DNA of 64,000 nt from a virus. Below are positions 2,974-62,658 of the stretch, piece after piece. Both the position numbers and the translations under genes were made by a program. Under the pieces are notes generated by a model, which had not been told where the DNA came from, searched no databases, and was given only the letters and a program-made list of their open reading frames with translations. Every line of letters begins with the position of its first letter. Within the stretch, counting starts at the first letter, position 1. The stretch spans positions 26,588 to 90,587 of the IMG/VR virus record IMGVR_UViG_3300036819_000331; one strand, given 5' to 3'.

Positions 2974-3174
2974 ATGCACGCTCCTTCAGTTAGAGGTTGT
3001 TGGCGAGTGACAAAGGGCAGGGCGGCGCGCTGCCGCAACATGAGTTCGCGGGGACCCGGCTGCAGGAGCGAAGCGACGAAGCTGGGCGGAACGAATTTGC
3101 GGCGAGGGTGCGGCGTCCCTGCCAGTCACGGAGAGCCAACAACGGAAGGGGGTTACGGAAAATGCGTGACTCGG

Positions 3175-3432
3175 CTAAATGCCGGGCTCCTGCCCATACT
3201 CCCGCTCGTACCACTCCTCGAACTGGTCCGGCTTCTGTGCCTGATAACGACACACAGTCCAAAAGAGATATAGCCCCAAACCGGACAGGAATACCGAGCT
3301 TGGCCAGTTGCCTCCCCCGGAGACGAAGGATACGAAATCGAAGGACAAATCGATGACGGCCACAATCATGATGGCGAACCACAGGAATATGGCGACGTAA
3401 ACCAGAGAATGCGTAAATCTGCGCTTCATCAT
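3175..3432 (-). CDS. Small membrane protein
   Basis: About 85 residues with two hydrophobic segments, LVYVAIFLWFAIMIVAVIDL and a weaker one around SSVFLSGLGLYLFWTV. A hydrophilic tail rich in Glu follows (DQFEEWYEREYGQEPGI). The start is uncertain: paired ATG codons at 3432 and 3429, or an in-frame ATG at 3453. The Shine-Dalgarno is weak. It is divergent from the rightward gene at 3524. I do not recognise the family. Confidence 0.5.
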   Translation of the reverse strand: MMKRRFTHSLVYVAIFLWFAIMIVAVIDLSFDFVSFVSGGGNWPSSVFLSGLGLYLFWTVCRYQAQKPDQFEEWYEREYGQEPGI

Positions 3433-20081: not shown

Positions 20082-20374
20082 TGCCCCCCACCGTGTTTCC
20101 CGCAACGCGATCAGCCGACTGGTACCGGACCCACCTCTTCGTGGCACAGGCCTCTCCCACGGTATGGAGCGCCGAGAAAGCCCGCATCCGCACCCTCGAA
20201 TGGAAACGGCCCGCGAAGATTCGCATCACCGCCTGCATGCTGTGCTGCACCCGCCCGATTGACGCCATAACCATCCCGCAGGGCGATACCTACCTGCTGG
20301 AACGCCTCGGCCTCACCCACCTGGGCGACACAAAGAACCGGAAGCTGGCGCAGCAACTTCGGGAGTTCCCATGA
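20081..20374 (+). CDS. Hypothetical protein, 97 residues
   Basis: Starts MPPTVFPATRSADWYRTHLF; contains ITACMLCCTRPIDAI, a possible metal site, and a helical end. The ATG overlaps the upstream stop (TGATG). The first codons coincide with a 20-bp motif that recurs exactly at 57398-57417, so part of the N-terminus is dictated by that repeat. Function unknown. Confidence 0.6.
   Translation: MPPTVFPATRSADWYRTHLFVAQASPTVWSAEKARIRTLEWKRPAKIRITACMLCCTRPIDAITIPQGDTYLLERLGLTHLGDTKNRKLAQQLREFP
20084..20103 (+). repeat. 20-bp dispersed repeat, coding copy
   Basis: CCCCCCACCGTGTTTCCCGC at the very start of the gene at 20081, identical to the intergenic copy at 57398-57417. Confidence 0.5.
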
Positions 20375-22753: not shown

Positions 22754-23302
22754 ATGCAGGCAGCGCCAGTCGAGGATACCGGATTCATCGACATGAGGGA
22801 GCAGCTGGCACCCAAGCAGGTGAAGGCGTATGTCGAGCACCAGCGGGAGCGGGGCCATGTCGAATTCAATAACGGCTCCATCCTCGTGAAGAGCCGTCAC
22901 CCGCTCGACCAGTGCCTGCGGCGGGGCATCATCGAGGCCCACCACCATGACAGCGGCAAGCGCATCATGACGATCCGGGACTGCGCGTTCTCCCGCACGT
23001 CCGGCCGCATCTACAATGACCTCGGGCAGGGCGATAGTGGCATCGATGCCATGACGCTGTTCACGGAGGCCAGCCGGGCGATGATGAAGCTCGGCAACCC
23101 GAAGTTCGGCGGCCTCTGGGGTCTCATCAAAATCGTGTGCTTCAGCGAGCCGGATATCGATGGGAACTTCTTCAGCGAGGCGGAATACTCAGCGCTCTAC
23201 GGGCTCGGGCCGAATATTCAGAACGCGTTTGAGGAGTTGGATAAGGCGTTGGGGGAGGCGAGGGAGGCGATAAAAACGCGTCTCACGAATTCGCAGCGGT
23301 AG
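22754..23302 (+). CDS. Hypothetical protein at the end of the early operon
   Basis: 182 residues. KQVKAYVEHQRERGHVEFNNGSILVKSRHPLDQCLRRGIIEAHHHDSGKR, then IYNDLGQGDSGIDAMTLFTEASRAMMKL and EAEYSALYGLGPNIQNAFEELDKAL. AAGGAG 7 bases before the ATG at 22754 supports this start. It is the last rightward gene before late genes, where late-gene regulators often lie, so a regulator is possible but unproven. Its last 20 bases overlap the convergent TIR gene. Confidence 0.6.
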   Translation: MQAAPVEDTGFIDMREQLAPKQVKAYVEHQRERGHVEFNNGSILVKSRHPLDQCLRRGIIEAHHHDSGKRIMTIRDCAFSRTSGRIYNDLGQGDSGIDAMTLFTEASRAMMKLGNPKFGGLWGLIKIVCFSEPDIDGNFFSEAEYSALYGLGPNIQNAFEELDKALGEAREAIKTRLTNSQR

Positions 23303-24536
23303 TATTTTTCGGGGGACGTGGCATGCCGCATTGTTCGCACACCTTGGCGAAAAAGGGTTCCATGGCGGCGAGTGGGTCTTCGCCGACGCGATAATCCCCC
23401 TCGACCTCGATGAGATCGCTGGCACACGGACCAACCGGGCGCGCGAAGTTGGAGAAGCCCATTGAGCGACCTCGCACACCCTCAAATCCGGCAATCCAAT
23501 GAAAAGGCCCTGGAATACCAAAGCGATCACGCAGGAACTCGGCACCTCGCAACAGACTGTTCGAAAAACCAGACTCATCAAGCAGGATAAGCTTTGGTAG
23601 GTTCTGCAAGGGAAAGGTGTCTATCAGCCACAATTCGCCATCAATAAACATAAAGACAACCGCAGGCGCGAGATTAGAGTCCAGAACGGGTGCTAGGCCC
23701 GCGCCATCCGCGCCTCGCAAGTCAAAACTGCTTGTGTAGCCGTTATACAGCGGCAGCGTGGATAAATCTTTAACCTGTTTCCTGATAGCAATGACATTAA
23801 ACGGCTCCGTTGGGGGCGTTTGAGGAATAACCCTGAGCCAGAAGGCGGCTCCGTCAGACAGTAATGCCTCAGATTCAGGCCTCCCGTTCAGACTGGCGAT
23901 GGGATGCTTATAAAATCCGATTGGCTCCCCCTTGGCACGGAACCTCGCCCTACCATCTAGCGGGCGTCGGTACTCCCGTGGTTTAACTGGCGCGAGGCTT
24001 GACTTGTAGGTCTCGGCTGCGAGGATTTGTCTAATCTCGATTTCGAGAACTTTCGAGAGGTGCTCGCGCTGGGCTTTTCGTTCGTCGTCGGACGCTCCAT
24101 CTGGTACGTCGTATGGAGACGGGAATGCGTGATGCGCAAGGTCGAACGGCATCGTTGCCCTGTTGGGTTTTCCGTACGCCGTATTCATCACGGGGACAAT
24201 CCTGCTGTGCCCCAAACTCTTAAGGGCATACCCGTATTCGATCAGCACATTAGGGTTCGGAGTCGGCTCGCCATTCTTGCGTTCAGCGACGAACGTCAAG
24301 TCAGGAACGAAAATGGCGGCTCGATCGATCTTGCCAAGGATCGTATCGAATATGGGCGGAGATCCGGGAACCCCCTTAATGTCCTTATCAAGAACCAGTT
24401 CGTGAGGGCGCTCATCGATAGTAAGTTCCTTCGAAATTCGTTCCAGAGCGGACTTGAGCGCTCGTTCTATGAGGTTGCGCCCTTCCTTCGTCGGCCTATC
24501 CGATTGCCACGAGAAGAAAACCGTTGCGGTGCTCAT
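23283..24536 (-). CDS. TIR-like protein with C-terminal extension (candidate defence effector)
   Basis: 417 residues. The N-terminal 165 residues match the bacterial TIR-like group that begins FFSWQSD: VFFSWQSDRPTKEGRNLIERAL, LDKDIKGVPGSPPIFDTILGKIDRAAIFVPDLTFV, then NPNVLIEYGYALKSLGHSRIVPVMNTAYG. The Glu in NVLIEYGYA is where TIR NADase catalytic glutamates fall. The C-terminal 250 residues are an alpha/beta domain of unknown type (RRPLDGRARFRAKGEPIGFYKHP, LPKLILLDESGFSNSLLRGAEFLRDRFGIPG). It reads against the surrounding operons and forms a two-gene cassette with 24544-24825. A role in exclusion of other phages is inference. Confidence 0.7.
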   Translation of the reverse strand: MSTATVFFSWQSDRPTKEGRNLIERALKSALERISKELTIDERPHELVLDKDIKGVPGSPPIFDTILGKIDRAAIFVPDLTFVAERKNGEPTPNPNVLIEYGYALKSLGHSRIVPVMNTAYGKPNRATMPFDLAHHAFPSPYDVPDGASDDERKAQREHLSKVLEIEIRQILAAETYKSSLAPVKPREYRRPLDGRARFRAKGEPIGFYKHPIASLNGRPESEALLSDGAAFWLRVIPQTPPTEPFNVIAIRKQVKDLSTLPLYNGYTSSFDLRGADGAGLAPVLDSNLAPAVVFMFIDGELWLIDTFPLQNLPKLILLDESGFSNSLLRGAEFLRDRFGIPGPFHWIAGFEGVRGRSMGFSNFARPVGPCASDLIEVEGDYRVGEDPLAAMEPFFAKVCEQCGMPRPPKNTTAANS

Positions 24537-24543
24537 TAGTTCG

Positions 24544-24825
24544 TCAATCAGTAGTTATGGTATCGCGATATACAGTGAAGGCCAGGTCAAAGATTTCCTC
24601 GGCAATCGCAGTCAATTCCGGTCGCCGAACTCCGTCGAGATTCTCCAAGGCTTTGTTGATCCGCACAAGTCGCTCGCGGTATTGCGGCGGCGATGTTTCG
24701 CCAAGCGGAAGAAGGGTGATTTTCGCTCCGAGGAGCCGCGACTTGAGCTTTTCATCAATCGTGGCGAGGAGTTTGCATGCGCTGTAACAACGCTCCGCTA
24801 CCGACAGATCTGCATTTCTGGCCAT
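24544..24825 (-). CDS. Helical partner of the TIR-like gene
   Basis: 93 residues: DLSVAERCYSACKLLATIDEKLKSRLL, then YRERLVRINKALENLDGVRRPELTAIAEEIFDLAFTVYRDT, all helical. It ends 7 bases before the TIR-like ATG, so the two are one operon. It may be a sensor, inhibitor or structural partner of the TIR protein. Family not recognised. Confidence 0.6.
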   Translation of the reverse strand: MARNADLSVAERCYSACKLLATIDEKLKSRLLGAKITLLPLGETSPPQYRERLVRINKALENLDGVRRPELTAIAEEIFDLAFTVYRDTITTD

Positions 24826-24935: not shown

Positions 24936-25047
24936 GCGTTTGGAGCGCATGAATTCGCAGAAACGCTTGGCCTTCCGATCTTCAACCGTATCTTTTCCCA
25001 CCGAAATCGACGCCGGTTCGTGCCAGGCGGCCCGTATTGAGGCCGCG

Positions 25048-25179
25048 ATGTCGAAGCCTGTCCTCCGTGTTGCCGTAACGCCGGAATGGCTGGCGGAGAA
25101 TGCGGTGAAGCAGCTGGCGTATGAGGAGAAGTTCCGCGCGTGGCGTAAGCTGCATCCGTCGCGTAATACGACTCAATAG
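25048..25179 (+). CDS. Small protein, 43 residues, before terS
   Basis: MSKPVLRVAVTPEWLAENAVKQLAYEEKFRAW and a basic end. GAGG lies 5 bases before the ATG. An in-frame upstream ATG (24952) without a good ribosome-binding site would add 32 residues. Function unknown. Confidence 0.45.
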   Translation: MSKPVLRVAVTPEWLAENAVKQLAYEEKFRAWRKLHPSRNTTQ

Positions 25180-25189
25180 CAATTTTCAC

Positions 25190-25290
25190 GGGGACGGCAC
25201 AATCCGCAAGGACGCGTGCGCGGGGTGAGAAAACCCTGAGTAATCGTCCCCACTAAACATGCCCCGCGGGTGAGCGGGGATTTTCATTTT
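25190..25290 (+). promoter_or_regulatory. Structured leader with terminator and alternative pairing upstream of terS
   Basis: GGGGACG (25190-25196) pairs with CGTCCCC (25245-25251), enclosing two hairpins: GCAC...GTGC capped by TCC-GCAA-GGA, and GGGT-GAGAAA-ACCC. Ten bases later CCCCGC (25262-25267) pairs with GCGGGG (25274-25279), followed by ATTTTCATTTT, an intrinsic terminator form. CGCGGGG at 25219-25225 is also complementary to CCCCGCG at 25262-25268, which would block the terminator stem. This is the layout of an attenuator, riboswitch or put-like antitermination site controlling late genes. No known class is recognised. Confidence 0.5.
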
Positions 25291-25308: not shown

Positions 25309-25809
25309 ATGGGTAGGAAAGCGCCGAAGAAGCTGGTGAAGTTCAGCTCCGAACTCGGCGAGTTGATCTGTTCGCTGCTGGCCGAAGGACAGAGTCTGCG
25401 GAAGATTTGCTCAATCGATAGCATGCCGCGAGTATCGACGGTGATGTATTGGTTGGCGAAAGGCGCGGCGAAGACAAAGCCATTCGACGCATTCCTTGAG
25501 CAATACGCGATCGCGCGCGAGGCTCAGGCTCAGGTTTACGTCGATCAGATCATCGATATTGCCGATGATGACGAGGGTGATTTCGGCTTCAAGTCGGAAG
25601 ATACCGAAGAGGGCGCGAGCGGCAAGCCCGTCGTCCTAATTGACAACGTTCATCGGGCGAAACTGCGGGTTGACGCCCGCAAATGGATTGCCTCGAAGCT
25701 TCTTCCGAAGAAGTACGGCGAGAAGATTCAGCAGGAACACAGCACCAAAGACGATAAGCCCATACCGATATTCACGCTCAACATCGGCCAGAAGACGCCC
25801 GATGCATGA
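25309..25809 (+). CDS. terS: Terminase small subunit (Sf6-type)
   Basis: 166 residues. LICSLLAEGQSLRKICSIDSMPRVSTVMYWLAKG forms an HTH followed by FLEQYAIAREAQAQVYVDQIIDIADD, the helical assembly region of Sf6-like TerS. The C-terminus (VDARKWIASKLLPKKYGEK) is also typical. TerS rings recognise pac/cos and regulate TerL. Weak Shine-Dalgarno; the start follows the family N-terminus. The last 4 bases overlap terL. Confidence 0.85.
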   Translation: MGRKAPKKLVKFSSELGELICSLLAEGQSLRKICSIDSMPRVSTVMYWLAKGAAKTKPFDAFLEQYAIAREAQAQVYVDQIIDIADDDEGDFGFKSEDTEEGASGKPVVLIDNVHRAKLRVDARKWIASKLLPKKYGEKIQQEHSTKDDKPIPIFTLNIGQKTPDA

Positions 25810-27053
25810 ACATCCAGTACCAACGGCCGCCGCTGTATCCCAAGCAACTCGCCGCCATCTTCCATGACAAGCGATACGGTTTCATAGAAGCGAGTACCAA
25901 GGCCGGCAAGACCGTCGGAAACATGGCGTGGATTCTGGAAAAGACCCTTATCGGATCCAAGCCGAATCAGAACCGCTGGTGGGTCGCTCCTGTATACGGT
26001 CAGGCGGAAATTGCCTACACGCGCATGAAGCATGGCCTTCCGAAGGGCATATTTGATGCGCACGATACGAAGCTTCGCCTCTCGTTCATCAACGGCGCAA
26101 ATATCTGGTTCAAGTCCGGCGAAAAGCCCGACAACCTCTACGGCGACGACGTTTACGATGTCGTCATCGACGAAGCGAGCAGGCTGCGCGAGGAAGCTTA
26201 TACTGCGATCCGAAGCACGCTTACCGCGACGCGCGGTGCGCTCAGGGCCATAGGCAACGTCAAGGGACGTAAGAACTGGTTCTACCGCCTCTGCCGAAAA
26301 GCCCAGGCGGGCGATCCGACAATGGAGTACCACAAACTCACCGCATATGACGCGGTCGAGGGTGGCGTCCTGGCGGCGGAGGAAATCGAATCCGCGAAGC
26401 GGGAGTTGCCGGAGAATGTCTTCCGGGAGCTTTACCTTGCCGAGCCTTCAGATGATGGCGGCAACCCGTTCGGCATCGCAGCGATTCAGGCGTGCGTTAA
26501 GCCGCTTTCGACCTTACCCGCAGTCTCCTGGGGCTGGGATTTAGCAAAATCCTACGACTGGTGCGTCGGAATCGGCCTCGACAGGAACAGCGACACTTGC
26601 CGGTTCGAACGTTTCCAAAAGCCTTGGCAGGACACGATTTCCTACATAAGGAATGTTACCGGCAATGTCCCGGCGCTTGTGGACAGTACCGGAGTCGGTG
26701 ACCCGGTGCTTGAGGCTCTCCAGGCAAACGGCGGCAACAATTTCGAAGGCTTCAAGTTCTCGCAGCTGAGCAAACAGCAGCTCATGGAAGGGCTGGCGGT
26801 CGCGATACAGCAAAAGCACGTCGGCTACCCGGCTGGCGTCATTGTCTCCGAGCTTGAACAGTTCGAATACGAATATACGCGCACCGGAGTACGTTATAGC
26901 GCCCCGGAAGGATTTCACGATGACTGCGTATGCGGTCTCGCCCTCGCGGTGCGCAGAAAGACAATTCCGCTGCCCGGCGCTGGCTGGCTCGCCTACGCCG
27001 AGTCGCAGGCCGTCGAAGCGCAGAAAGCCGCAGAGAAAGCCAAACACCCTTAA
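25806..27053 (+). CDS. terL: Terminase large subunit
   Basis: 415 residues. The Walker A-like ATPase motif is ASTKAGKTVG (residues 28-37), Walker B is VYDVVIDEASR with catalytic Glu, and the coupling motif is RAIGN. The nuclease half has WGWDLAKSYDW, PALVDSTGVGDPVLEAL and FHDDCVCGLALAV, supplying the three Asp of the RNase H-like active site. It packages concatemeric DNA into proheads through the portal. Confidence 0.92.
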   Translation: MNIQYQRPPLYPKQLAAIFHDKRYGFIEASTKAGKTVGNMAWILEKTLIGSKPNQNRWWVAPVYGQAEIAYTRMKHGLPKGIFDAHDTKLRLSFINGANIWFKSGEKPDNLYGDDVYDVVIDEASRLREEAYTAIRSTLTATRGALRAIGNVKGRKNWFYRLCRKAQAGDPTMEYHKLTAYDAVEGGVLAAEEIESAKRELPENVFRELYLAEPSDDGGNPFGIAAIQACVKPLSTLPAVSWGWDLAKSYDWCVGIGLDRNSDTCRFERFQKPWQDTISYIRNVTGNVPALVDSTGVGDPVLEALQANGGNNFEGFKFSQLSKQQLMEGLAVAIQQKHVGYPAGVIVSELEQFEYEYTRTGVRYSAPEGFHDDCVCGLALAVRRKTIPLPGAGWLAYAESQAVEAQKAAEKAKHP

Positions 27054-61773: not shown

Positions 61774-61791
61774 GGTACTTTGACGAACATT

Positions 61792-62658
61792 ATGGCGAGG
61801 AAGCCTCCAAAAACTGAGCCAGAGGCGCGGGCCGAACTGGCAGTAAGCCGAGATGAAGCCGATGCGCAAATTGGCTTAAGAATCGTGTCAGGGGAGGATA
61901 TTGCGGCGAAAACGATCACTTCGCCTGACATCTTGAAGGTCGTTGAGGAAGAGTATTTCCGGTGGGATTCCTATAATGCCGAAATGCTGGACCGCCTGTT
62001 CACGACCGACAAGTTTGCAAGGGAATACAGTTTCTTCGGGATCGCTTTTATAAATACCTACCCCTCATTTCCGAAGGACCTTCAGGACTTCAAAGAGCGC
62101 ATGCAGAGTAAATTGCATCGCTTAGCCTCAATCCGTGGGCGCCTGTCACTGATTCCGCAGGGCATAAAGTTCCTGCCCGTGCCGGGCGCCTCGCCATCAC
62201 AAGAAAGTAACGTCGCCCAAGGCCGGAGGATCTTCATTGTTCATGGACACGACACCGGCACACGTGAGTCGGTCGCTCGGTTTCTGGAGCGGCTGAGTTT
62301 GGAGGTAATCATTCTCCAGGAGCAAGCCGGGAGGAGCCGGACGCTCGTTGAAAAACTTGAAGATCACTCAGACGTGGATTTCGCGATCATACTCCTGACG
62401 GGGGATGATGTGGGCGCGGCAAAGGGCGACCAAGCAAACCTAAAACCACGTGCACGCCAGAACGTAATCCTTGAGCTTGGATACTTTGTCGCCAAGCTGA
62501 GAAGGAACAACGTTTGCGCGCTCTATGCTGAGGGCGTTGAGCTTCCTTCGGATTTCGTAGGCGTCCAGTATGTTCAGATTCGTAGCGGCTGGGAGTTCGA
62601 GGTTGCCAAGGAGTTAAAGGCGGCGGGTTTCGATATCGACACGAATAAGTTGCTCTAA
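61792..62658 (+). CDS. TIR-type nucleotide-binding protein (CAP12-like)
   Basis: 288 residues from ATG 61792 (a TTG at 61780 is in frame). The N-terminal 140 residues are helical. The C-terminal half has RRIFIVHGHDTGTRESVARFLERLSLEVIILQEQAGRSRTLVEKLEDHSDVDFAIILLTGDDVG, then RARQNVILELGYFVAKL with the catalytic-position Glu. This is the PF10137 type used as TIR effector in CBASS and Pycsar, where NAD is degraded on cyclic-nucleotide binding. No cyclase is found nearby, so it is not a complete system. Transcribed away from parA. Confidence 0.78.
   Translation: MARKPPKTEPEARAELAVSRDEADAQIGLRIVSGEDIAAKTITSPDILKVVEEEYFRWDSYNAEMLDRLFTTDKFAREYSFFGIAFINTYPSFPKDLQDFKERMQSKLHRLASIRGRLSLIPQGIKFLPVPGASPSQESNVAQGRRIFIVHGHDTGTRESVARFLERLSLEVIILQEQAGRSRTLVEKLEDHSDVDFAIILLTGDDVGAAKGDQANLKPRARQNVILELGYFVAKLRRNNVCALYAEGVELPSDFVGVQYVQIRSGWEFEVAKELKAAGFDIDTNKLL

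Follow-up and report, generated by a model that had tools for sequence, protein, structure and literature searches.

Introduction

The put RNA of phage HK022 is about 70 nt long, is located just downstream of the PL promoter, and forms two stem-loops without a closing helix (PMC9378689); put acts by binding the beta' zinc-binding domain and suppressing termination. Other small structured phage RNAs act in trans on protein, such as the RNA anti-CRISPRs (Racr; PMC10651486) and the abiF antitoxin RNA (PMC12373285). The element described here was found in a 64,000-nt stretch of viral DNA (IMG/VR record IMGVR_UViG_3300036819_000331, positions 26,588 to 90,587), which is referred to as the window, and it resembles each of these systems in part. 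It is a stem-loop RNA from a phage, about 70 nt in size and adjoining a putative promoter like put, but the class discussed here has a closing helix P1 (7 bp in the window) and can face convergent genes. With riboswitch and attenuator leaders it shares a junction that contains a GNRA hairpin, followed in the window by a terminator-like hairpin, whereas the class lacks an Rfam match, a conserved exclusive pairing and a constant downstream gene. It is also similar to Racr and abiF RNAs in being a small structured phage RNA, and an abiF RNA is present 12 nt 3' of one class member (L343); unlike abiF-type antitoxin RNAs, the window RNA has no adjoining toxin gene, and no resemblance to CRISPR repeats was noticed in it.

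A Three-Way-Junction RNA Preceding the Terminase Genes

The features of the region, which lies at the boundary of the early and late genes, are given in Table 1. The original prediction described a three-way junction, GGGGACG/CGTCCCC enclosing two hairpins, one of them with a GCAA tetraloop, and all of these pieces and their coordinates are correct. When folded alone, the core reaches -31.4 kcal/mol (z -3.94), which is equaled by none of 200 shuffles, and the structure accounts for 81% of the ensemble; in a 161-nt context, the z-score of the same element is only -1.06.

Table 1. Features of the RNA element and its surroundings in the window.
Feature	Position	Strand	Remarks
Small ORF, 79 aa from TTG	24940..25179	+	Ends 10 nt before the RNA; L001 homolog with 45% identity; no match in Pfam or PHROG
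TAGCAAT	25177..25183	+	Contains the small ORF's stop codon; close to the family A TANNNT position; imperfect match
Structured RNA core, P1-P2-P3 three-way junction	25190..25251	+	From folding; kept at L001:4393-4464; model R3 match 25183-25258
P1 5' strand, GGGGACG	25190..25196	+	Pairs with CGTCCCC 25245-25251; 7 bp
P2 hairpin, GCAC / AA-CGC internal loop / TCC-GCAA-GGA / GTGC	25197..25219	+	Outer pairing GCAC 25197-25200 with GTGC 25216-25219; inner pairing TCC 25203-25205 with GGA 25210-25212; GNRA tetraloop GCAA 25206-25209
P3 hairpin, CGGGGT-GAGAAA-ACCCTG	25221..25238	+	CGGGGT 25221-25226 / ACCCTG 25233-25238; GTGAGAAA common to L001
Junction J3/1, AGTAAT	25239..25244	+	Putative counterparts CGTATG in L001, CGTAYCG in families A/B
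GC hairpin, CCCCGC-GGGTGA-GCGGGG, then ATTTTCATTTTC	25262..25279	+	6-bp GC stem with interrupted T-tract; weak terminator-like; perhaps the 3' end of the RNA itself
terS, small terminase subunit, Sf6-like, PF20901	25309..25809	+	First gene 3' of the RNA
terL, large terminase subunit	25806..27053	+	

In the original prediction, the sequence had not been recognized as a known class, and this agrees with Rfam, in which none of the riboswitch, ribozyme and sRNA families gave a match above the gathering score; even at E 10, nothing was retrieved for the window element save a meaningless alignment to NsiR1. Similarity searches of a named phage collection gave no similar DNA, and a description of this RNA was not found in the open-licence literature. 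The RNA class is apparently undescribed, being absent from Rfam 15 and unmatched by similarity in named phages.

The Nearest Relative

Terminase searches resulted in a single close relative, L001, with identities of 88% for terL, 81% for terS and 45% for the small upstream ORF. L001 carries the element at the equivalent position (fold z -2.65), and the letters GGGACGGC, AUCCGCAAGGAC and GUGAGAAA are kept between the two. More distant terminase loci were searched and are without such an RNA, and strict pattern scans resulted in coding or chance matches only, apart from L001. Covariation in homologs had been set as a test of the prediction, and compensatory changes between the window and L001 are observed in the outer P1 (G-C to A-U) and in P3 (G-C to C-G); a third two-sided change, in P2, hinges on the alignment register. 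The observed values are reached by 63 of 500 shuffles, a control that is not decisive for two sequences. The fold in the window is above chance, as L001 keeps it with two-sided changes and an independently built model recognizes the element (see below). Direct covariation evidence for the window itself is provided by these apparent compensations in L001 only.

Recurrence of the P2 Hairpin in Unrelated Phages

Scanning IMG/VR with the pattern GGNNCNATCCGCAAGGAC retrieved at least 117 stretches, with 77 distinct contexts among the matches listed; all counts from the viral scans are lower bounds. The recurring P2, AUCCGCAAGGAC, has an internal loop of 2x1 or 2x3 and is capped by a GNRA tetraloop; ATCCGCAAGGAC is identical in L001 and six other lineages. 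In seven of the 77 contexts, two of which belong to the same family (A), a P2a of 4 bp is accompanied by a P1 of at least 7 bp, compared with 0.23 expected when downstream flanks are swapped between contexts. The P1 helices of 7 or more bp in L115, L138, L140, L145 and L146 are unrelated in sequence, indicating that what is maintained in P1 is the pairing rather than a particular sequence. Model R2 led separately to an acidobacterial prophage-like locus, L115/L431, in which the RNA is located about 1.9 kb before genes that, read by eye, resemble HNH and small terminase genes.

Several other matches were considered. A coding origin of the L145/L146 element was rejected, as the element occupies the gap from a stop codon to the following start, and its P1 covaries between the two loci (U-A to C-G). 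Two loci with the P2 hairpin, without P1 and P3, were set aside: L151, in which the hairpin precedes a ribosome site, and L132, in which it is part of an intrinsic terminator. The match in L101 is doubtful (18.9 bits, E 0.058). Weak R2 and R3 matches in Acidobacteriota genomes occur at chance expectation, except for L115, and in a pattern search of 881 genomes of three groups, L115 alone is structured, with the other four matches looking like coding sequence.

A Large RNA Class Formed by Families A and B

Two of the families found via the P2 hairpin form one large RNA class. A pattern for the 3' part, blind to P2, retrieved at least 120 stretches, including at least 82 distinct members with GGTCGG upstream. 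The RNA is about 65-90 nt long. Its closing helix, P1, begins at the 5' end or close to it, P2 carries a small internal loop and is capped by a GNRA tetraloop, and P3 varies in length. In an alignment of 41 sequences of both families (A9; 27 pairs), 96.7% of the cells are paired, and 15 pairs show two-sided change, comprising 197 such cells. Shuffles gave 77.2% paired and 57.7 cells, slid controls gave 33-46% paired, and the covariation score of A9 was reached by none of 500 shuffles. This covariation evidence belongs to families A and B. P2 covaries, whereas P3a (CGGU/ACCG) never varies in the alignment and therefore neither supports nor opposes that helix.

Conserved residues are concentrated around the junction, along the P2 arm and within J3/1. 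Every loop is of the GNRA type (GCAA, GUAA or GUGA), a UGAA bulge is (nearly) invariant, and a U-G pair in P1 is fixed. In 20 records, the RNA is present once per phage record. An exception is L380 (reverse strand, element 3112-3204), in which two tandem copies are separated by about 60 nt and differ in both the P3 hairpin and the P1 sequence. In family A, for example L123:6248-6339, folding of the lone element prefers an alternative hairpin, UGAAACCG/CGGUUUCA, which competes with P1 and P3a, so the family A RNA may be bistable according to the folding model.

Relationship of the Window Element to the Class

Covariance model R3 was built from A9 alone, without the window or L001, and was used to search 404 kb; its E-values are rough, as the calibration was shortened. 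R3 retrieved L001 with 32.0 bits (E 1.9e-5) and the window with 22.5 bits (E 0.0064), this being the best site of the window, and it matched L115, L138, L140, L145 and L146 with 27.7-35.4 bits. The link of the class to the window is partly ascertained: families A and B as well as L138, L140 and L145 were all found via a 12-mer shared with the window, and therefore part of the window's R3 score is ascertainment. A weaker R3 match at 20140-20220 on the reverse strand of the window (16.2 bits, E 0.3) is probably due to chance.

Independent of the 12-mer, the agreement consists of the three-way topology, the abutting of P1 and P2 (P2 starts 0-1 nt after P1, also in the window), a GGWCGG start and GUA in J3/1. 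The P2 with its small internal loop and GNRA tetraloop is present as well, partly ascertained since the class was found via this hairpin. A TANNNT box 11-16 nt before GGWCGG is exact in L001 (TAGATT) and imperfect in the window (TAGCAA(T)), and family B has no such box. Sequence comparison showed that the P3a CGGU/ACCG and the UGAA bulge of families A and B are absent from the window and L001, and therefore the window element is at best a divergent relative outside family A or B proper. Taken in this sense, a relationship to the class is quite probable from these sequence features.

Genomic Context and a Putative Promoter

The class RNA is intergenic, has no fixed downstream gene and can face convergent genes. 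Among the 82 members listed, 71 have an upstream gene on the same strand, mostly ending 2-70 nt before the RNA, and 22 have a downstream gene on the opposite strand, including a sigma-like gene in L356; these counts come from crude gene calling. The upstream genes are of many unrelated kinds, and hosts were read by eye from gene content only. In L330 and L395, the gene directly before the RNA encodes what reads like a fusion of a zinc ribbon (NrdR-type) with an RNA polymerase alpha C-terminal domain. In L327, L335, L369 and L377, a short opposite-strand sequence 3' of the RNA resembles the 3' half of a tRNA, and ARAGORN detected no complete tRNA in it. A solitary abiF RNA, the one next to the L343 member, is located at L343:1719-1755 (+) (Rfam RF03085, 52.9 bits), and no Abi_2 gene was detected in this 65-kb viral record. 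This neighbor is only a hint of a counter-defence role, from a single case.

In family A, 29 of 38 independent upstream contexts share a conserved YANNNT at -16 to -11, and the sequence before it shows little signal. Non-homologous upstream ORFs end in ...VA*, because the box DNA runs through their stop codons. TANNNT has been documented as a minimal -10 element in another GC-rich bacterium (PMC6448022), and the often conserved box would be placed as a -10-type element for a transcription start at P1. After the family A RNA, a hairpin was recognized by eye, and so was a promoter-like sequence that would separately serve a KilA-N-like gene about 295 nt further on. In family B, an intrinsic terminator is located directly before P1, with its T-tract at the box position, and therefore its RNA may come from read-through. 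A terminator also precedes the RNA in L343, L353, L365, L408 and L418, and in several of these, an opposite-strand terminator-like hairpin follows it.

The Terminator-like Hairpin and the Proposed Switch

The original prediction placed a terminator after the fold. The GC hairpin is indeed there, and a hairpin is found at the corresponding place in L001, but the T-tract in the window is interrupted and such sites are not more common in the region than expected (8 found versus 6.5 +/- 2.6 in shuffles). The predicted complementarity of CGCGGGG (25219-25225) to the 5' arm of this hairpin (25262-25268) is real in the window and extends to 9 positions when G-U pairs are counted. It was looked for in L001 and is absent there, and therefore the proposed switch is not conserved. 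An attenuator in which junction and terminator exclude each other is thus not supported, given the absence of this pairing from the 88%-identical L001 and the poor T-tracts.

Possible Functions

A covarying structured RNA in over a hundred phage contigs represents a functional RNA class awaiting a function. It is an evenly balanced proposition that the window element is a small phage RNA of this undescribed class with its own short gene rather than a leader of the terminase mRNA, and this is the preferred reading. The RNA would be transcribed from this gene with its start at P1, the hairpin after it in the window could be its own 3' end, and during infection it may act in trans on a protein of the host or of a defence system, in the manner of a structured decoy or an antitoxin-like RNA, as suggested by its anatomy. 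The conserved unpaired letters are located in a structured core and not in an open seed, which makes protein binding likelier than antisense pairing; on the aligned sequences, the conservation pattern suits binding to a protein or RNP. Since no neighboring gene is constant, the RNA is unlikely to regulate a single gene in cis. Action in trans from a small RNA gene would account for every context, with the exception of the promoter in family B. The absence of an exact TANNNT at the expected place in the window and its score of only 22.5 bits with R3 are points against this reading. More speculative is the broader proposal of a large undescribed class of phage small RNAs, spread across unrelated phages between transcription units, that would serve in trans as counter-defence or host-takeover decoys or antitoxin mimics. 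If the RNA acts in trans, it would join the few phage RNAs known to target proteins of the host, whereas action in cis on polymerase would make it a second, much wider put-like family.

Such a put-like role, one of the options named in the original prediction, is the main rival, although in itself rather unlikely. The nascent RNA would bind its own RNA polymerase and allow it to pass this hairpin and further terminators on its way into the late operon. The similar size and the strong stem-loops argue for it, as does, in family A and L001, the location immediately after a promoter-type box. In these two and in the window, the RNA is also succeeded by a terminator-like hairpin and a co-directional operon. 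However, put consists of two stem-loops without a closing P1, the terminator of family B precedes the RNA, and several promoter-bearing members face convergent genes, some with a terminator-like hairpin on both sides (L343, L353, L365), where processive read-through would yield antisense RNA only. A cis antiterminator fits the window and family A but not these convergent cases. The close same-strand upstream genes, and the position of the family B RNA right behind a terminator, would suit a 3'-end or RNA-processing element of the upstream transcript (a stabilizer, exonuclease block or ribozyme). This is doubtful, as the TANNNT box is located between the upstream gene and the RNA, the upstream genes are so diverse, and no Rfam ribozyme matches.

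The original prediction that the terminase operon has a leader acting as an attenuator or ligand sensor is improbable. The element does precede terS in both the window and L001, and the complementarity of P3 to the terminator arm spans 9 nt in the window, but this pairing is absent from L001 and the T-tracts are poor. The class also speaks against control of terminase: linkage between the RNA and terS is not conserved, many different or convergent genes are found downstream, and no Rfam riboswitch matches. A site at the DNA level, such as a cos/pac packaging site or a replication origin, with palindromes that merely resemble an RNA fold, is very improbable. Cos sites are often located just before terS, and the element is found between transcription units in many members, but the GNRA-only loop variation and the fixed U-G pair in P1 fit an RNA on this strand, and other members are located among early genes, far from terminase.

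Other Genes of the Window

The reverse-strand cargo genes just 5' of the small ORF differ between the window (23283-24825) and L001 (L001:3204-3980), and this region may be a cargo hot spot. In the window, a 417-aa cargo gene of this region has a weak CAP12/Pycsar TIR match below the cut-off. Further downstream, at 61780-62658 (+), a 292-aa protein matches the PADLOC PDC-S35 and TIR effector models and is a candidate phage-carried defence gene.
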